From: a virus
Length of the DNA stretch: 64,000 nt
Direction: 5' to 3' (one strand)
IMG/VR virus record: IMGVR_UViG_3300032331_003609
Span: 124,001-188,000 of that record
Part shown: in pieces, positions 13,854 to 24,680 of the stretch
Numbering within the stretch: the first letter of the stretch is position 1
How the letters are laid out: each line of letters starts with the position of its first letter
Translations under genes and position numbers: made by a program
Notes under the pieces: model-generated
Database searches by the model: none
What the model saw: the letters and a program-made list of their open reading frames with translations, nothing else
What the model was told of the DNA's origin: nothing

Positions 13854-15941
13854 ATGTTCGAAAGCAAATTAAATAGGGGTAAAGCGAATGGATATGCCCC
13901 GCTAGATTCAGAAGGGAAAGTTCCTGCTGATAGAATCCATGCGGGTGCTAGCGGAACATCTGGTGTATCCGGAACTTCAGGTACATCGGGATTGAATGGA
14001 TCACAAGGACTTAATGGTACATCAGGATCTGCAGGAACATCTGGTATATCAGGATCTGCAGGAACATCAGGAAGCGATGGAACTTCCGGTTCTAGCGGCA
14101 TAAATGGCACTAGCGGAACAAATGGCTCAAGCGGAACTTCAGGTTCTTCTGGAACATCAGGTTCTGGATTTGTTTGGAGAGGGGCGTGGCAACCAAGTCC
14201 AACAGTTTATGTAGGCGGTCAAGATGTAGTTTCATATACCGGAGGTTCATACATAAAGATTGGAGACGGTAATTCAGGTAGCGCACCGCCATTTGATTCA
14301 ATTCGTTGGAGCCCAATTGCAGAATCAGGAAGTTCTGGTGATAATGGGACAGATGGTAATGATTCTTCAAATAGCGGTAGATGGATTTATGCTGCCACTA
14401 TTACTCCTGGAAGTGGAAATTTTGGAACAGATGATCCTGTAATGAGTTTAATCGAATATGTCTACATAAATACAGATGAGGTAAACGGGGCAAATTATTC
14501 TACATGGCTTTCCGGAGTAGACAGTATACAGAACCTTGGTTACCCTGTCTATTTACAAATCACACAAGTAGGTTCTAACAATATTATTGGTATCTGGAGA
14601 GTTATATCCATTACTTCAACTGGTGGTGTTTACGAGTTTCAAGTTGATACGCCACTTGTGGCGAATGGTACTATAACTATATCAGATGTTTTTACAATAT
14701 CATGGGTATACAATGGGATAAGTGGTTCTTCAGGTTCAGCAGGAACTTCTGGCACTTCAGGTACGAGCGGTACATCAGGTACTACTGGAACTAGCGGTTC
14801 AAGCGGTTCAGCTGGCACCTCAGGTTCATCTGGTTCTGCTGGAACAAGTGGAACTTCAGGAACTTCTGGCACTTCAGGTACGAGTGGTACTTCCGGTTCT
14901 GCTGGAACTTCAGGTTCGAGTGGATCAGCTGGAACTAGCGGTACTTCGGGTTCTTCTGGATCTGCTGGAACGAGCGGTTCTTCAGGATCGAGTGGTTCAG
15001 CAGGTACAAGCGGTACTTCAGGATCAAGCGGTTCAGCAGGAACTTCAGGTACATCAACCCCCGGGCCACAGAATTATACACAAGTTTTAGGATCCCAAGT
15101 AAATAGTGTTAGCACAACAGGAATAACCATAATTTCAGGATCGATCACGACAACTGGCAATCCGGTCAAGATCCAAGTAACAGGTGATGCAAATCCACAA
15201 TCAGTATCAGGATGGGTGAGACTTCAAATATACAGAGAATCTACCCCTATAGGTAATATAATTCAATGCGAAACAGCAGGAAATAATGTAAATGTTCCTT
15301 ACTGTGTGGATTTTATAGATACCCCTGCAGCGGGTACCTACACATACTCAATGAGAACTGTTAGCGGTATTGCTGGAACATTCCAATTTGGAGAGGTAAA
15401 CGGGCCTACACTAAGTATGACTGAAATGGCGGGGGCAATTGGATCTTCAGGAACTTCCGGAGCTAATGGATTATCAGGTAGTTCTGGATCAAGCGGGGCA
15501 TCAGGAACGTCCGGAGCTAATGGATTGTCTGGTAGTTCTGGATCTTCCGGATCTACTGGAACATCAGGATCTACCGGTGCATCAGGAACATCGGGTACTT
15601 CATTCACCTCTCCATATTCCGGTAATCTAAATGGAACTGCAGGTCAATCCTGGATGTCGTCATTCGGAGCAACAACTTCAATAAACTGGAATAATGGAAA
15701 CGTACAAACACGTACACTTGCTGCTAGTGAGACGTTTACTTTTGCAAATCCACAAAACGGAGCAACTTATATTTTGGTAATAAAACAAGCAGCAGCTGGT
15801 AACTATACGATTACTTGGCCAACTATTAGTTGGATGGGGGGAGCACCTCCAACTATGACAACAACTGCTAATAAAACTGACATTTACACATTTGTATACG
15901 CTAATAGTACATATTTCGGATCTTACGCACAAAACTTCTAA
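13854..15941 (+). CDS. Collagen-like tail fibre protein
   Basis: A 695-residue fibre protein. It opens with a fibre-type N-terminus (NRGKANGYAPLDSEGKVPAD). Long G-X-Y tracts of Gly, Thr, Ser and Ala follow at about residues 32-103, 290-402 and 530-583 (GTSGTSGSSGSAG units). They alternate with globular beta domains at about 105-290 and 405-530. The C-terminal domain, from about 585, ends YFGSYAQNF and is a typical compact fibre tip. The triplet tracts should form extended trimeric stalks. Strong antisense open frames over the tracts come from the repeat composition. It lies directly upstream of the LamG-like protein (6-nt gap). Confidence 0.8.
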   Translation: MFESKLNRGKANGYAPLDSEGKVPADRIHAGASGTSGVSGTSGTSGLNGSQGLNGTSGSAGTSGISGSAGTSGSDGTSGSSGINGTSGTNGSSGTSGSSGTSGSGFVWRGAWQPSPTVYVGGQDVVSYTGGSYIKIGDGNSGSAPPFDSIRWSPIAESGSSGDNGTDGNDSSNSGRWIYAATITPGSGNFGTDDPVMSLIEYVYINTDEVNGANYSTWLSGVDSIQNLGYPVYLQITQVGSNNIIGIWRVISITSTGGVYEFQVDTPLVANGTITISDVFTISWVYNGISGSSGSAGTSGTSGTSGTSGTTGTSGSSGSAGTSGSSGSAGTSGTSGTSGTSGTSGTSGSAGTSGSSGSAGTSGTSGSSGSAGTSGSSGSSGSAGTSGTSGSSGSAGTSGTSTPGPQNYTQVLGSQVNSVSTTGITIISGSITTTGNPVKIQVTGDANPQSVSGWVRLQIYRESTPIGNIIQCETAGNNVNVPYCVDFIDTPAAGTYTYSMRTVSGIAGTFQFGEVNGPTLSMTEMAGAIGSSGTSGANGLSGSSGSSGASGTSGANGLSGSSGSSGSTGTSGSTGASGTSGTSFTSPYSGNLNGTAGQSWMSSFGATTSINWNNGNVQTRTLAASETFTFANPQNGATYILVIKQAAAGNYTITWPTISWMGGAPPTMTTTANKTDIYTFVYANSTYFGSYAQNF
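13949..15605 (+). repeat. G-X-Y (GTS) collagen-like coding repeat tracts
   Basis: Three separated tracts (about 13949-14163, 14722-15058, 15443-15600) made of 9-nt units encoding Gly-Thr-Ser, Gly-Ser-Ser or Gly-Ser-Ala. Codons vary from unit to unit, so the constraint is on the protein rather than a recent DNA expansion. Shorter tracts of the same kind lie at about 10147-10220 and 10490-10630. Confidence 0.8.
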
Positions 15942-17400: not shown

Positions 17401-17420
17401 GATATATACAATAAAATAAA
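17401..17420 (+). promoter_or_regulatory. Late promoter GATATATACAATAAAATAAA
   Basis: GATATATA begins 29 nt before the ATG at 17430 and is followed by the A-rich CAATAAAATAAA leader. Almost the same 18 bases occur before the 34557 gene. Confidence 0.72.
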
Positions 17421-17429
17421 TCCCTCAAA

Positions 17430-19679
17430 ATGGATAGAATTAATTTCGACGATAATCTGTCACAGATAAAAATGGAAAAGGCTAAAGCTGCTGCCACTCT
17501 TTTAAATGAGAGCTGGGGTGGTAACGGAGGTTTTATTCCAGGCGCTGCTGGCTCGTATACAGACGGTTTACAAAAAGAGATAGCTAATATGTCTACAGAA
17601 GACAGAAACCTAGCTAAACCTTCTTTTTCTGTTGGTGTGTTAGAAACAGCAATGGCTTTAAACAATACATCATTCACTGAATTGCCAGAAGCTAAGGTCC
17701 TGGTTGAGAAATACATCAATCATGCAGCGGTTAAAGGAATTTCTGAGGCTTACCTGATTGAATCAATGATCTCTGAATTGGAAAACTTTGCTTGGGAAAA
17801 GAATGTAAAATCTGCATTAAATACCCTAAAGAAAACATTTGAAAGCAATAGAAGAGAAATTGAAGTAGCAAAGGCTATTGAAGAAATTAATAGATCAGCA
17901 GGTAGAGATTTATTTTCTGGTATTGTTGAATCAATGAGAAATTGGTTAGCAGCAGATCAAAGAATTTCAGAAAGTCTTTTAAGAGACCTTAAGAAATGGG
18001 GATTTAACCCAACAGTTAGAAATCTAGTTGAGAAGGTATCTTATTTGGAGAATAACAGCTCAAGCAGATTTAGTATTAAAGTAGCATCTGATACATGCAG
18101 TGTCAGCCCTATTATTGCTCCAAGTTTAGTTACTGAAAGTTCTTCAATATTTGTAACATCTGATAGATTCTTCAGAGCTACAGAAGAAGGAGTATCTGTA
18201 ATGGAAAGAGCAGAAGCTTCAAAACTTCCTGGTAAATTCTTAAATGCAGTTTTAGCACTTTCTAATCCAAATGTTAAAGTTAACGAAAGTGGTTTAGATC
18301 TTTATATAGGTAAAAATAAAATCTCTGTTGTTTTTGAAAGTGAAACAGATACTAAAAATATTTTCTTCAACGGTAAAAGAGTAGCAGAAGATAAATTAGG
18401 ATTCACATTATCTTTTGAATTAAGAAATGGCTTCCAAGGATCTGCTAATGCAATTGAAAATGCAGTTCAAGTAGTAGAAGCTGCTAACTATCTTTCTGAA
18501 ATTGATTTTGGTAAAAAGATCTCTTCTAAAATCTACGAAGGAGTAGAAGCTAACGTATTTAAATTTGGCGAAAAGGTTTACGTTCATAAAGTAAACCCTG
18601 CTATGAGAAAGAACGAGCTTTTAGAAGGAAACGGCAATCAAGCAGTTAATATAGTAAAAGAATTCTTAGGATTTGATCTTTCTGAATCTATGACAGAAGT
18701 TTTAGAAAAAGAAGAAAGAATCTTAGCTATCATGAAGAATGACAAAGAATCTATCAAGAAAAACCTATCTATCGTAGAGAGCGAAATGAACAAGATTGCT
18801 AAAGCACTTGAATCAAATCCTTCTTTACAAAATTCTGATGAAATTAAAGAAGCTCAAGTAATGCTTAGCAATGAGTCTACTGCATTAAAATCTAAATGGA
18901 ATCAAATCTCAGTTGAGATTGAAAGATTCGAAAAAGGAGCTAAGAAGGTATCTAAAATCTCTGAAAACGAAGGATATGGTATTAACACCGATGTTAAAAT
19001 AAACAGAAACGGAGAAAAAGGTAGAGTTGTAGGTGTAAATGGTAATTCTAAAACATACACAGTTATGTTTGAGAATGGAAAAACCGGAGAATTTTTCTTC
19101 AATGATGTAACTGATATCTCAGATGAAATTAACAACATTGAATTACAACCAGTTAATGATTTACAAGAAGAGGAAACAAACGAATCAGCTGAAGCTAACT
19201 TAGCAGAAGCACCGGACACAACTGCAGCAGGATCAGCAAAAGATATTGACGATTTAAATGCTCACAATTTAGCAAATTTAGATGTTAAAGGTGGTAAGAA
19301 ATTAAAAGAAGATCCAAAAGGAACTTCTGGTAAACATGAATTAGCAACTGCTCCTGAGCACACAGCAAAGACAGGAAAGAAATTCGTTCAAAAAGAAAAG
19401 AATGCTAACTTAGCTGATGCACCACATAGCACATCTGCTGGATCAGCAAAAGATATTGAAGATTTAAAAGCTCACAATTTAGCAATTATCGAGTCTCAAA
19501 AGAATGCTAACTACGAAAAAGCACCTTCTGGCAAGAAAGAGAAAGTTAAAAAATTAGTTCTTGGTAAAAAAGGAACTTTGGCTAAAGCACCAGGTAATAG
19601 CAAGCATAACGGTAAAGGTGATCACGAGCCTCTTAATAGAGCAACCCTATCTAAAGCACCGTCTACAAAAAAAAAGTAA
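17430..19679 (+). CDS. Late head-module protein with 'LAxAP' repeats; possible -1 frameshift at the end
   Basis: A 749-residue protein of unknown family under a strong late promoter. Near the N-terminus is LLNE|SWGG (E27), a candidate gp21-type maturation site. Residues about 30-480 are mostly helical with a beta-rich section (about 195-330). A small beta domain (KGRVVGVNGNSKTYTVMFEN) lies near 540. The C-terminal 170 residues are Lys- and Ala-rich with repeated LAxAP motifs (NLAEAPDTT, ELATAPEHT, NLADAPHST, TLAKAPGNS, TLSKAPSTK) and two copies of AGSAKDI[D/E]DL. The gene ends ACA AAA AAA AAG TAA, containing the slippery heptamer A AAA AAG, and an open -1 frame continues beyond the stop. Confidence 0.72.
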   Translation: MDRINFDDNLSQIKMEKAKAAATLLNESWGGNGGFIPGAAGSYTDGLQKEIANMSTEDRNLAKPSFSVGVLETAMALNNTSFTELPEAKVLVEKYINHAAVKGISEAYLIESMISELENFAWEKNVKSALNTLKKTFESNRREIEVAKAIEEINRSAGRDLFSGIVESMRNWLAADQRISESLLRDLKKWGFNPTVRNLVEKVSYLENNSSSRFSIKVASDTCSVSPIIAPSLVTESSSIFVTSDRFFRATEEGVSVMERAEASKLPGKFLNAVLALSNPNVKVNESGLDLYIGKNKISVVFESETDTKNIFFNGKRVAEDKLGFTLSFELRNGFQGSANAIENAVQVVEAANYLSEIDFGKKISSKIYEGVEANVFKFGEKVYVHKVNPAMRKNELLEGNGNQAVNIVKEFLGFDLSESMTEVLEKEERILAIMKNDKESIKKNLSIVESEMNKIAKALESNPSLQNSDEIKEAQVMLSNESTALKSKWNQISVEIERFEKGAKKVSKISENEGYGINTDVKINRNGEKGRVVGVNGNSKTYTVMFENGKTGEFFFNDVTDISDEINNIELQPVNDLQEEETNESAEANLAEAPDTTAAGSAKDIDDLNAHNLANLDVKGGKKLKEDPKGTSGKHELATAPEHTAKTGKKFVQKEKNANLADAPHSTSAGSAKDIEDLKAHNLAIIESQKNANYEKAPSGKKEKVKKLVLGKKGTLAKAPGNSKHNGKGDHEPLNRATLSKAPSTKKK
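19667..19676 (+). other. Candidate -1 slippery site A AAA AAG
   Basis: A run of nine A then G lies immediately before the stop at 19677. In the zero frame it reads A-AAA-AAG, the same heptamer used by Escherichia coli dnaX. A -1 shift here enters an open frame of 84 codons ending at 19930. A hairpin with a 12-bp stem starts 26 nt downstream, which is further than usual for frameshift stimulators. Confidence 0.5.
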
Positions 19680-19930
19680 ACACAATTTCTGAACATAGAA
19701 AAGAGTTCGTTTCCGAAGGTATAGGAAGCGAACTCTCTTTTTTTGCAGAGGATCTGACAAAGACCATAGGTAAATTGAAGGAATTAGAAACAACCAGTCA
19801 CTCTAACAGTAAGATAGGATTGAAGACCATACAAGACAGCATAAAAAAACTTGTGGCTTTAGAGGAAGATGTAACTAGACAAATGGAAACATTAGAAGGT
19901 CATTTCTCTCAAGAAAATAATACAGACTAA
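19673..19930 (+). CDS. Coiled-coil extension or separate small gene in the -1 frame
   Basis: An open frame of clearly protein-like sequence with no ATG near its start: VNTISEHRKEFVSEGIGSEL, later DLTKTIGKLKELETT, IQDSIKKLVALEEDVTRQME, ending SQENNTD. The frame is open back to 19655, where a stop precedes it. It could be a -1 frameshift extension of the 749-residue protein (product about 833 residues). It could also be a separate gene using ATT 19685 or TTG 19775, or the continuous C-terminus if one A is missing from the homopolymer. The stop lies 5 nt before the gp55 ATG, as expected for tightly packed real genes. Confidence 0.6.
   Translation, partial: KVNTISEHRKEFVSEGIGSELSFFAEDLTKTIGKLKELETTSHSNSKIGLKTIQDSIKKLVALEEDVTRQMETLEGHFSQENNTD
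19703..19744 (+). terminator. Hairpin: terminator-like or frameshift-associated
   Basis: GAGTTCGTTTCC / GGAAGCGAACTC, a 12-bp stem with one G-U pair and loop GAAGGTATA, is followed by TCTTTTTTT. It has the form of a rho-independent terminator, yet it lies inside an open frame that continues to 19930. It may attenuate transcription between the 17430 gene and gp55. Confidence 0.6.
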
Positions 19931-19935
19931 ACCAA

Positions 19936-20292
19936 ATGGAGTATGTTAAAAACAAAGATCTAAAAAGAGCGATATTAGAATCAAAAGAGAATGGAAAATT
20001 AACCGCAGAAACGGTTAAAATGTTTACTTTAATAGTAAATGGTCTTTCAAAAACAAAATCCTATCGGGATATTGAAGATAAAGAAGATTGCATAGCATTT
20101 GGAATGGAGGATTTAATTAAATATTGGGACAGATTTGATCCAGCTAAATCCGATAATCCATTTGCATTTATTTCACAAATTGCCAAAAACGGAATGCAAA
20201 AAGGTTGGAAAAAAATACATTCAACCAGGTCTATAAAAACCATCCCCTTTTCTAGACTTACAAGGGATGATAATCAAAATTATAATGTCTAA
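19936..20292 (+). CDS. 55: Late-transcription sigma factor, gp55-like
   Basis: A 118-residue homologue of T4 gp55, the divergent sigma that directs host RNA polymerase to late promoters. T4 gp55 is longer (185 residues). As recalled from the T4 sequence, the N-terminal EYVKNKDLKRAIL corresponds to its YVNNKELLQAII, VNGLSKTKSY to AEGLSKRFNF, and YWDRFDPAKSDNPFAFISQI to LHNFDETKYKNPHAYITQA, a sigma region-2-like core. The C-terminal part, which in T4 contacts the sliding clamp, is short here (SRLTRDDNQNYNV). The gene overlaps the next by 8 nt (ATGTCTAA). The GATATATA/TATAAATA promoters in this window are its expected targets. Confidence 0.82.
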   Translation: MEYVKNKDLKRAILESKENGKLTAETVKMFTLIVNGLSKTKSYRDIEDKEDCIAFGMEDLIKYWDRFDPAKSDNPFAFISQIAKNGMQKGWKKIHSTRSIKTIPFSRLTRDDNQNYNV

Positions 20293-20779: not shown

Positions 20780-21351
20780 TGGATTTTAAAATAGAAATAA
20801 GAGATGCTATAGAGAAAGCTGGATCCCCTGCAAAATTAGCGGAGGAAAGTTTTTTGAATTATTCAAAGAACTATGCAGTACTTACTAGTTCAGAGTCGCT
20901 TAGGAGTTTAGTTCAGGGAAAGATCTACACATTTTATTATGATTCAGATATTAAGGCAGATAAGGGATTTGTTAATAGAAGACCCGTAGTGTTCTTTGAA
21001 TCAAAAGAGATAACCCCATCAAAAAGCATAATAAAAGGAATAGACATGATCTTGCTAAGTCCAAAAGACAGAAAGAATTTCTTCATCCGATTACATTCTA
21101 TTTATGGTAAAATCATGGATCAGAACGAAAAAAGAGATAGATCTGCGCACATGCCTTTAAGATTTGACCCCTCAGTATTAGAAACTTTAATGGGAGGTAT
21201 CAAGTATAATCATGCATACACCGGATACAAAATGGAAAAAATAAAAGGATTAAAGGAAATAGAAAGAGAGGAGTGGAGATATTTAGTCTATCTAAACACC
21301 AAATCTATTGAGGGGGCTGATTTGAACGATATATACAACAAATATCAATAA
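20779..21351 (+). CDS. T4-like structural/assembly protein, unrecognised
   Basis: A 190-residue protein between the gp4 and portal genes. A central motif GKIYTFYYDSDIKADKGFVN, then RRPVVFFES, followed by 'IDMILLSPKDRKNFFIRL' and 'HAYTGYKMEKIKGLKEIERE', recalls a conserved protein of T4-like phages in which '[Y/F]-Y-D-R-x-P-L-V' precedes a hydrophobic LP-rich segment. That resemblance is from memory and tentative. Overlaps of 1 nt on both sides (TAATG type) show tight coupling with the head genes. Function unknown. Confidence 0.65.
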   Translation: MDFKIEIRDAIEKAGSPAKLAEESFLNYSKNYAVLTSSESLRSLVQGKIYTFYYDSDIKADKGFVNRRPVVFFESKEITPSKSIIKGIDMILLSPKDRKNFFIRLHSIYGKIMDQNEKRDRSAHMPLRFDPSVLETLMGGIKYNHAYTGYKMEKIKGLKEIEREEWRYLVYLNTKSIEGADLNDIYNKYQ

Positions 21352-22943
21352 TGGCAGGATTTTTAGGAGATAATAGGAGCAATCCATTTTTTAGTAACGT
21401 TCTAAATAACCTTAGAAAAATAGGTTCTTTTGGAATGAGCTATGGTGACATGGTTGTTAAAAACTCCCAAGCGGTAGGTACTACCGAGGCAATGTTCTTA
21501 AAACAGGGCGGAATTCAGGATGAAAATTTCTTATATGCTTTAAGAAAGGCAGATACCACAGCTAAACAATACATAGCTTATTTTGATAGGGATTACATCA
21601 ATAAGAAAACATATCTTAGAAGCTTTGCACTTAATCCTGAAATAGAATTTATTTTAGATACCGTTTGCGACGAAGCTATTGTATATGATGATAAAAACTT
21701 CTTTTCATATTTTGTATCAACAGATATCAAGGGTATTGGCGAAGAGATGGAACAGCAAATACAAGACAGATATAAAGAAATTTATAGCTTATTTGGCTTT
21801 AATGAAGGAATCTCTGCATGGCACTTTTTTAGGAACTTTTTAATTGATGGGATATTAGCATTTGAAATCATATTTGACTCGAGGGGAAAGAATATTATAG
21901 GATTTAAAGAATTAGATCCTGCATCCTTATTGCCTTCCGTCGAAAAACAACTTGACGGTAATTTCGTAGAATGCTGGATTCAATACCCAGACAATCCCTC
22001 TTTATCTAGAAAATTGTACGATTCACAGATTATTTATATTTCATACGCTAAGGGAAATACAACAACAAGAGTAAGTTATGTAGAAAGATTGATTAGATCT
22101 TTTAATCTATTAAGAATTATGGAGCATACCAGAGTAATTTGGAATGTTATGAATTCATCATATAGAATGACAATGACTGTTCCAGTAGGAACAAAATCCC
22201 CGCAAAAAGCAAAACAATCATTAGCTGAGCTGATGAGCATCTATAAAGAAGATATTAGTCTTAATCAAGATAGCGGTGAGCTTTTTGTGAACGGAAAACC
22301 AAACATTCAGTTCTTTAAAAATTATCTGATGCCGTCTACTCCCAACGGAACACCTGATATAACACCATTAGCAGGAAGCGGAGATGCAACACCTTTTAGC
22401 GATTTAAAAGCTTTAGCATATTTTGCAGATAAGCTTAAATTAGATTCTAAAATTCCATATTCAAGATTTGATAGAGAGGATAGAGGTACACAGGGTACAT
22501 TCAGTGGTAACGCAGAAGGATTAGATCAAGAAGAGATAAGATTCTTTAAATTCATTACAAGATTAAGATCCATCTATCAAGATATACTTCTAAAACCTTT
22601 ATGGATACAATTTTGCTTGGATCATCCAGAGCATAAAAGGGATTTTATGGTTAAGAGCCAATTCGGTTTAGATTATGTTAAAGATAATTCTTTTGCTGAA
22701 ATAAAATATATGGAGATCCTCAATGCAAGAAAAGATCAAGTAACTAAAATTGCAGGTCTTTTAGATGCTGACGGAACACCGTATTTCTCGTTGAATTATG
22801 TACTAGACAAGTATCTTGGAATGACCGATGATGATAAGATAGCTAACGAGAAAGCAAAAGAGGCAGCAGAGAAGAAGAAAAAAGAGAAGGAGAAAGAAGC
22901 AGGAGAAGCAGGAGAAGCACCAGAAGGAGAATTTAAACTTTAA
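21351..22943 (+). CDS. 20: Portal protein, gp20-like (paralogue A)
   Basis: A 530-residue portal protein of the T4 gp20 family, close to T4's 524. The portal is the dodecameric ring at one capsid vertex through which DNA is packaged and to which the neck joins. Conserved segments are EFILDTVCDEAIVYDD (near residue 100), GFKELDPASLLPS, YVERLIRSFNLLRIMEHTRV, NSSYRMTMTVPVG and DKLKLDSKIPYSRFDRE. The C-terminus is a charged Lys/Glu/Ala tail (from about 500). The first 40 residues (RKIGSFGMSYGDMVVKNSQA) are shared with the next gene. Two portal-type genes in tandem is unusual. Confidence 0.9.
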   Translation: MAGFLGDNRSNPFFSNVLNNLRKIGSFGMSYGDMVVKNSQAVGTTEAMFLKQGGIQDENFLYALRKADTTAKQYIAYFDRDYINKKTYLRSFALNPEIEFILDTVCDEAIVYDDKNFFSYFVSTDIKGIGEEMEQQIQDRYKEIYSLFGFNEGISAWHFFRNFLIDGILAFEIIFDSRGKNIIGFKELDPASLLPSVEKQLDGNFVECWIQYPDNPSLSRKLYDSQIIYISYAKGNTTTRVSYVERLIRSFNLLRIMEHTRVIWNVMNSSYRMTMTVPVGTKSPQKAKQSLAELMSIYKEDISLNQDSGELFVNGKPNIQFFKNYLMPSTPNGTPDITPLAGSGDATPFSDLKALAYFADKLKLDSKIPYSRFDREDRGTQGTFSGNAEGLDQEEIRFFKFITRLRSIYQDILLKPLWIQFCLDHPEHKRDFMVKSQFGLDYVKDNSFAEIKYMEILNARKDQVTKIAGLLDADGTPYFSLNYVLDKYLGMTDDDKIANEKAKEAAEKKKKEKEKEAGEAGEAPEGEFKL

Positions 22944-22946
22944 TAA

Positions 22947-24680
22947 ATGGCAGGATTCATTGACAATTTTTCACAGAGTAACCCAAACATGGGGCGTATA
23001 CTCAAAGCCGTAAGTAAAATCGGAAGCTTCGGAATGGAGTATAAAGATCTTGTTGTGAAAAATTCTCAAGCAATTGGGGTTTCAGAAGCAATGATGAGAC
23101 AAAAATTAGCATTAACAGATTCTGATGAGGATTTTATTTTTAGCCTTGCAGCTGCAGATACCACTAGTAGAAAATACATTGCTTATTTTGATAAAGATTA
23201 TCCATACAAAAGAGATTTTTTAAGAAGCTTTGCACTTAATGCCGAGATAGAATGGATTTTAGACATCCTTGCTGATGAAGCTATAGTTTATGATGACAGA
23301 AATTTTTGCTGCAGTCTATCACTGGTTAATATGGATCTAAAGGATGAAATAGCAGACTCATTGAGGGAGAACTTTAGAAAGATCTATGTCTCCCATGGAT
23401 TTAACAACGGAATTTCAGCTTGGCAGTATTTTAGACAATTTTTAATAGATGGATTTTTATCTTTTGAAATAGTTTATTCAGATGATGGAAAACAAATAGT
23501 AGGATTTAAAGAATTAGATCCAGTTTCATTGACCCCATCTGTAGAGAGAAACCCTGGAGGACAAACTGTTCAAATATGGTATCAGTACTATGGAGACAGT
23601 GTTAGAGAAAGAAAGCTATATGATGCTCAGGTCATATATGTTTCTTTTGCAAATGGTAATGGCACAAGCAGAACAAGTTATGCTGAAAGATTAATTAGAT
23701 CCCATAATCTTCTAAAGATAATGGAGCATACCAGAATCATTTGGAATGTTATGAATGCTTCTTTCCGATTGAAGATGACTATCCCGGTTGGTTCTAGATC
23801 TCCTCAAAAAGCAAAAGAGACATTAGGGGAATTGATGAACATGTATAAGGAGGATATTAAACTTAATACTGATTCCGGAGAATTAAGTATTAACGGACGT
23901 CCAAATTTACAATTTTATAAGAACTATCTTTTCCCTGTCCAAGGAGGAGAATCACCTAAAATAGAGACTATTAATAATGCAGGGCCAAACTTAAATGTTA
24001 TAGATGCTGTGGTTTATTTCTTCAATAAATTAAAAGCAGATTCTAAGATACCATTTAATAGATTCGCTGCTAGATCTGGTGGAACCGTAGGAACATATAA
24101 GATAGGAGCAGAATCTGCAGAAAGGGATGAAATCAGATATAATAAATTCATTAATAGAATTAGATCAATCTATCAAGAGATCATACTAAAACCATTATGG
24201 ATTCAGATGACTTTGGATTATCCTGAACTTGATAAGGATTCTATATTTAGATCCCAATTAGGGCTTAAATTTAACTCCGATAATCAGTTTGGTGAATCTA
24301 AAGAGATAGAACAACTAATTAAGAAAATAGATTTTATAGCAGGACTTTCTGAAATTAAAGAAAAGAAAGGCGAAGAAGAACTTCCTTATTTTAGCCAGGA
24401 TTTTCTTATAGATAAATTTTTAGGATTGACCAACGAAGATAGAAGGGTTAATAATATTTACAAGAAAAAGGAGGAGGAGGAAGGCAAAGCAGCAGCTGCA
24501 ATTTCAGGATCTGCTACACCAGCACCAGCAGGTGGAGGTGACACAGCAACTCCAGCAGCAGAAACTGGAGGCGATGAAGCAGCACCAGCAGCTGAAGCCC
24601 CTGCGGAAGAAGCACCAGCAGCAGAAGCCACACCAGCACCAGCACCAGCAGCAGCAGCAACAGAGACTGAAGCACCTTAA
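22947..24680 (+). CDS. 20: Portal protein, gp20-like (paralogue B)
   Basis: A 577-residue gp20-family portal protein, homologous along most of its length to paralogue A and starting 3 nt after it. Shared blocks are SKIGSFGMEYKDLVVKNSQA, EWILDILADEAIVYDDRNF, GFKELDPVSLTPSVE, YAERLIRSHNLLKIMEHTRI, NASFRLKMTIPVGSRSPQK and NKLKADSKIPFNRFAAR. The core motifs are intact in both copies, so neither looks like a pseudogene. It differs by an Ala/Pro/Glu-rich tail of about 65 residues (from about 512). This is the last gene of the head unit; the early-type ligase promoter begins 7 nt after its stop. Confidence 0.9.
   Translation: MAGFIDNFSQSNPNMGRILKAVSKIGSFGMEYKDLVVKNSQAIGVSEAMMRQKLALTDSDEDFIFSLAAADTTSRKYIAYFDKDYPYKRDFLRSFALNAEIEWILDILADEAIVYDDRNFCCSLSLVNMDLKDEIADSLRENFRKIYVSHGFNNGISAWQYFRQFLIDGFLSFEIVYSDDGKQIVGFKELDPVSLTPSVERNPGGQTVQIWYQYYGDSVRERKLYDAQVIYVSFANGNGTSRTSYAERLIRSHNLLKIMEHTRIIWNVMNASFRLKMTIPVGSRSPQKAKETLGELMNMYKEDIKLNTDSGELSINGRPNLQFYKNYLFPVQGGESPKIETINNAGPNLNVIDAVVYFFNKLKADSKIPFNRFAARSGGTVGTYKIGAESAERDEIRYNKFINRIRSIYQEIILKPLWIQMTLDYPELDKDSIFRSQLGLKFNSDNQFGESKEIEQLIKKIDFIAGLSEIKEKKGEEELPYFSQDFLIDKFLGLTNEDRRVNNIYKKKEEEEGKAAAAISGSATPAPAGGGDTATPAAETGGDEAAPAAEAPAEEAPAAEATPAPAPAAAATETEAP

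Follow-up and report, generated by a model that had tools for sequence, protein, structure and literature searches.

A conserved run of nine A residues marks a programmed switch of reading frame in the last codons of a phage gene next to gp55

The last codons of a phage gene located upstream of a T4 gp55-like late sigma factor gene carry a run of nine A residues (A9), at which the reading frame is switched in a programmed manner. The switch leads into an open -1 frame of 84 codons that ends at the gp55 start and harbors a terminator-like hairpin. As the agent, we favor slippage of RNA polymerase on A9 over -1 frameshifting of the ribosome, a preference held with slightly better than even confidence, and both may act. 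The locus lies in a window of 64,000 nucleotides (the whole stretch of DNA analyzed), which is part of a 244,850-bp viral record, and comprises the following features:

17401..17408, + strand, promoter-like element GATATATA, 29 nt upstream of the 0-frame gene and shared with relatives
17430..19679, + strand, 0-frame gene, 749 aa, without PHROG or Pfam family
19667..19675, + strand, A9 slippery run (ACA AAA AAA AAG), 9 A in 50 of 51 distinct regions and 10 in one
19670..19676, + strand, in-frame heptamer A_AAA_AAG within the run, A_AAA_AAC in two lineages and A_AAA_AAA in one
19677..19679, + strand, 0-frame stop right after the run, TAA (TAG in two relatives)
19676..19930, + strand, -1 frame extension, 84 codons plus stop, helical/coiled-coil-looking by sequence, no conserved start codon
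19703..19714 and 19724..19735, + strand, arms of a 12-bp hairpin inside the extension, 9-nt loop, with compensatory changes
19736..19744, + strand, U-tract after the hairpin (6-9 T in 12 nt), both together an intrinsic-terminator-like element
19936..20292, + strand, T4 gp55-like late sigma factor gene (PHROG 234, E = 6.5e-16)

The original prediction had called the 0-frame gene a major late gene, a label that can be kept only as putative; its product belongs to no known family. The protein consists of an ordered part (residues ~1 to 570), with an SH3/Tudor-like domain near residues 516 to 566, and a C-terminal tail of low-complexity LAxAP-type repeats that ends in TKKK before the stop. An earlier structure model was of low confidence; a model of residues 1 to 570 reached moderate confidence (pLDDT 76.5), and the part beyond ~570 is a low-confidence tail. 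Foldseek analysis of the 0-frame model against the PDB matched only a Tudor/SH3-like domain, and against BFVD it returned uncharacterized phage proteins, including one from Tenacibaculum phage PTm1; a sequence search of the PDB with the 749-aa protein gave no match. The BFVD entry A0A1B4XWW4 of Tenacibaculum phage pT24, named DNA ligase 1, matches the fold with an E value of 4e-9; this label may be wrong, or the protein may be a fusion. At 13854-15941, a tail-fiber-like protein with long GTSG/GSSG collagen-like repeats is encoded.

The nearest known gp55 proteins and homologs are found in a huge uncultured phage and in Prevotella Lak phages, and gp55 is also close to those of Chryseobacterium phages, which makes a Bacteroidota host likely. 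The phages carrying the locus form a large group of uncultured T4-like phages, probably of Bacteroidota.

Conservation of the A9 run and of the -1 frame

With the 0-frame protein, the -1 frame and gp55 as queries, 103 loci were obtained, with 51 distinct regions among them. Since the set of 51 regions was built by requiring the run pattern, the loci were also read for exceptions, and among those reaching far enough upstream of gp55 only two, L059 and L077, are without the slip site. The site has the form C-A9-G-TAA in 46 regions, C-A9-C-TAA in two, C-A9-G-TAG in two and C-A10-TAA in one, and a heptamer consisting of A_AAA_AA followed by G, C or A stands in the 0-frame register in all 51. The gene end ACA AAA AAA AAG TAA at 19665-19679 and the in-register heptamer A AAA AAG at 19670-19676 are as originally described, and conservation of the slip site in relatives, which had been proposed as a check, extends over the 51 distinct regions. 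That so many regions have the run, the open -1 frame and the gp55 junction in common goes far beyond chance.

Two observations had been named as speaking against a frameshift, i.e., ten A's as in a simple fusion, and relatives that lack a slip site and start the second part at an ATG of its own. Both were looked for among the relatives, and neither was found. A homopolymer is a classical error site, but the presence of exactly 9 A, or of 10 with the next base changed so that the frames are kept, in 51 distinct regions from many metagenomes practically rules out a sequencing error, a simple fusion or a gene recently split in two by a frameshift mutation.

On a tree of 50 sequences, which leaves out L018 with its misaligned gp55, no changes were detected in the slip site except three at the base after the run and two at the last base of the stop codon. 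No change falls between the second base of the -4 codon and the second base of the last codon, both included, and neighboring third codon positions show 8 to 24 changes each. The -4 codon encodes T, S or A, with nine changes at its first base and none at its third base, which is the first A of the run. This A is outside the heptamer, yet it is as invariant as the heptamer itself. A9 is therefore a homopolymer of conserved length in the range (about nine or more A or T) looked for in transcriptional slippage. In the relative genome G004, another gene also ends in an A9 run (TCTAAAAAAAAATTAA, ~22228-22245) just before the next ATG.

In the window, the -1 frame opens at GTA (19676) and stops at TAA (19928-19930). 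It is indeed open for 84 codons, lacks an ATG at its beginning and stops 5 nt before the gp55 ATG, as had been claimed, and no ATG, GTG or TTG is present near its start. In the 51 distinct regions, the frame is homologous and open over 79 to 86 codons, and none of its first 25 codons is a conserved ATG, GTG or TTG. Changes at its three codon positions amount to 314, 214 and 529 on the 50-sequence tree, and pairwise dN/dS values are mostly 0.1 to 0.3, indicating purifying selection. An overlapping -1 frame that is conserved and under purifying selection is common to slippage of the polymerase and of the ribosome. Synonymous rates are lower in the -1 frame than in gp55, which indicates extra constraint at the nucleotide level. 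A second strongly synonymous-constrained block lies at ~19784-19801 (-1 frame codons for KELETT), with nearly unchanged third positions in ELET.

Translation of the -1 frame as a separate gene, from a non-AUG start or by re-initiation after the 0-frame stop, would agree with the direct adjacency of this stop to the beginning of the second frame and with the A-rich leaders without a Shine-Dalgarno (SD) motif that these phages use. An own start codon was rejected, however, as none is conserved, and a separate gene would leave the conservation of A9, which is partly synonymous in the 0 frame, without explanation; we therefore assign it very little probability. Because site and frame are conserved, purifying selection acts, a start codon is missing and the frame overlaps gp55 (see below), we conclude that the frame change is in use and regard both a sequencing error and a separate gene as very unlikely. 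Judged by comparison among the relatives, the -1 frame is a real C-terminal extension that is reachable only through the A9 run. The prediction that a single gene gives rise to two protein forms, through a change of frame at the A run, is supported, and the slip site is kept in relatives.

The two exceptions, L059 and L077, are relatives of the whole gene pair, belong to a sister clade and have no -1 frame. At the place of the hairpin, L077 carries a plain terminator, identified by scoring, that separates the gene from gp55, and L059 carries a similar hairpin there as judged by eye. In the distant homolog LR756500, gp55 follows directly without an extension, and the Lak-phage homolog of the 0-frame gene is part of a much larger open frame. 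A Chryseobacterium phage gene upstream of its sigma factor was also considered and rejected, having no detectable homology to the 0-frame gene.

Hairpin, U-tract and the junction with gp55

A 12-bp hairpin with a T tract had been predicted 26 nt downstream of the slip site and was confirmed at 19703-19744; its stem starts 26 nt after the slip codon and is followed by TCTTTTTTT. In the window, its fold is more stable than that of any of 200 dinucleotide-shuffled sequences (z = -4.4), and minimum energies of the hairpin region compared to codon-preserving shuffles gave a mean z of about -4.4. Across relatives, 95.1% of cells are paired, and 53 double-change cells were counted, compared to 17.3 ± 3.2 in shuffled and at most 16 in slid controls. 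Two main stem types, GAGTTCGTTTCC/GGAAGCGAACTC and GAGTCTGTTACC/GGTAACAGACTC, give the same helix. The spacer between slip codon and stem is 20, 23, 26 or 29 nt in every one of the 50 sequences, and the 12 nt after the stem contain on average 7.9 T (range, 6 to 9), compared to 22.5% T elsewhere in the frame. Comparison with Rfam produced only sub-threshold chance matches. The element thus combines a stable hairpin and a directly following U-tract, both conserved, as in intrinsic terminators. With its U-tract and a distance of 20 to 29 nt to the slip site, it has the appearance of an intrinsic terminator placed within the extension.

The stop codon of the -1 frame overlaps the gp55 ATG in 46 of the 51 regions, of which 32 share 4 nt (ATGA) and 14 a single nucleotide (TAATG type); gaps of 5 nt (four regions) or 15 nt (one region) are found in the others. 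All relatives with flanking sequence carry the element GATATATA or a close variant ahead of the 0-frame gene, LR756500 having a ATATATAC-type element. According to the genome-level analyses, which were made on stretches of genomes, 28 of 46 GATATATA copies precede an ORF start by no more than 60 nt, and the element is likely a promoter of this phage. Copies at 17401, 7514, 21328, 29022, 37845 and other positions are situated 24 to 30 nt upstream of many ORFs. None was found between the 0-frame gene and gp55, the next plus-strand copy being that at 21328. As GATATATA stands before the 0-frame gene and not between it and gp55, this gene, the extension, gp55 and the downstream genes, i.e., a gp4-like head-closure gene and a DNA-end-protector-like gene, look like one unit that has the terminator-like element within the extension. 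SD motifs are not in use in the genome (11 genes versus 9 in shuffles). The window also contains two adjacent portal genes (21351-22943 and 22947-24680) that are 51% identical over 534 aa, the first being assigned to PHROG 213 (portal, 6e-65); such a tandem portal duplication is unusual.

With a real frame change by either slip mechanism, the hairpin could serve only as a stabilizer or processing site at the mRNA 3' end, without coupling to gp55. Covariation of the hairpin is compatible with this role, as is a promoter of another type that gp55 may have, but the U-tract kept in 50 of 50 sequences, the start-stop overlap in 46 of 51 regions and the missing GATATATA before gp55 make it rather unlikely. 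The original suggestion that the hairpin tunes passage into gp55 is plausible insofar as the hairpin covaries and is U-tailed like a terminator; the coupling itself is deduced from this anatomy only.

Polymerase or ribosome as the slipping agent

In T4-like phages, the polymerase is the host core enzyme. By slipping on A9, it would produce a share of mRNAs in which the run holds 10 rather than 9 A (a loss of two would also work), the ordinary translation of which would yield a longer protein with ~84 extra, probably helical residues. Unslipped mRNA would lead to an immediate stop and the 749-aa form. The hairpin and U-tract within the extension would act as an intrinsic terminator of the gene: if the mRNA is unslipped, the ribosome would leave ~26 nt before the hairpin, so that the hairpin forms and most transcripts end, whereas on slipped mRNA it would pass through the hairpin and end at the gp55 start. 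The long form and gp55 would thereby be co-produced via read-through and start-stop coupling. Slippage as the agent, termination and gp55 coupling are what we infer, the latter two from anatomy. Tight start-stop overlaps are common in phage genomes, which speaks against the coupling, and gp55 may be served by a promoter of another type. A further, improbable step would be a frame-choice attenuator, in which slippage on A9 sets whether the ribosome stops short and the terminator forms or whether it reads through; a fixed fraction of transcripts would then give the extended protein plus gp55 and set the timing or dose of late genes.

Coding runs of at least nine A are depleted, irrespective of frame, in three genomes (2 versus 24.4, 2 versus 20.2 and 7 versus 18.8 expected), i.e., long runs are counterselected in coding sequence, as looked for in programmed transcriptional slippage. 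In-frame A_AAA_AAG with 6 to 7 A is near expectation in the same three genomes (33 versus 36, 25 versus 29 and 18 versus 18), with a total of 76 seen versus about 83 expected. When homologs keep a run of nine A's at the same length, this has been taken to indicate that transcriptional slippage is purposeful (Baranov et al. 2005, PMC1088944), and the base following the run (G, C or A) was counted for polymerase slippage as well. We favor the polymerase because the full A9 is kept beyond the heptamer and because runs of at least nine A, and not A_AAA_AAG, are avoided. Against this, a tandem site of A_AAA_AAA plus A_AAA_AAG would also need the ninth A, the depletion of long A runs could stem from indel mutation of the DNA rather than from transcription, and A_AAA_AAG, when in register, would serve the ribosome well as a slip site too.

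The alternative, less likely than polymerase slippage, is that ribosomes undergo programmed -1 frameshifting on A_AAA_AAG, perhaps as tandem A_AAA_AAA_AAG, with the stop codon and the distant hairpin as helpers at most. The heptamer is in register in 51 of 51 regions with only G, C or A as the last base, the same spread as used by IS1/IS3-type elements (PMC4066793), and end-of-gene -1 frameshifts occur in phage structural genes such as T3/T7 gene 10 and in phage A2 (PMC5009743). Reviewed stimulators of -1 frameshifting lie mostly 5 to 9 nt from the slip site (PMC5009743), but no such close stimulator was found here, the hairpin being 20 to 29 nt away, and no use of an upstream SD-like stimulator is visible. 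An IS case with A_AAA_AAC has no established stimulator, so that a stimulator is a helper and not strictly required (PMC4066793). The lack of avoidance of A_AAA_AAG and the invariant ninth A also argue against the ribosome. Its action at the heptamer, as originally proposed, is thus not well supported.

Comparison with known systems

Recoding that extends phage proteins at the end of a gene and slippage on A9 in bacteria are already known; new is the deeply conserved A9 site in this phage group, nested with gp55 and an element resembling a terminator. In the literature searched, which included few subscription papers, no description of the locus was found. Dozens of uncultured T4-like phages keep the frame switch, and in their annotations the extension will be split off or overlooked. 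Should slippage be the agent, the locus would add a phage to the examples of this type described for Thermus dnaX, Shigella and IS elements, and recoding would be linked directly to a terminator and a late sigma factor. The slip clade and its non-slip sister clade form a clean comparative system for polymerase versus ribosome slippage and also suit the question of whether frame choice sets late gene expression.

The T3/T7 gene 10 (10A/10B), Lactobacillus phage A2 and Listeria phage PSA resemble the locus in that a frame change at the end of a gene leads to a minor extended phage protein (PMC5009743). Those cases are ribosomal and concern coat or tail-shaft proteins, whereas here A9, a probably helical extension and a 0-frame protein without known family are involved. 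Escherichia coli dnaX and IS1/IS3 elements with A_AAA_AAG/A/C use the same heptamers in the same register (PMC4066793, PMC5009743); unlike dnaX and IS911, with their SD motifs and/or close stem-loops, the phage site has a hairpin 20 to 29 nt away and no SD. Thermus thermophilus dnaX likewise has a run of nine A's on its sense strand, and slippage there gives the shorter product, not the longer one as would be the case here (PMC1088944). In Shigella spa13/spa32 and mxiE, polymerase slippage on a homopolymer leads to a C-terminal extension, and in spa13 the end of the extension overlaps the start of the next gene, the expression of which is strongly affected by slippage (PMC5009743, PMC1088944). 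In contrast to the Shigella cases, the present one is a phage gene with putative slippage, placed at the very last codons, a terminator-like hairpin in the extension and a late sigma factor as the next gene.
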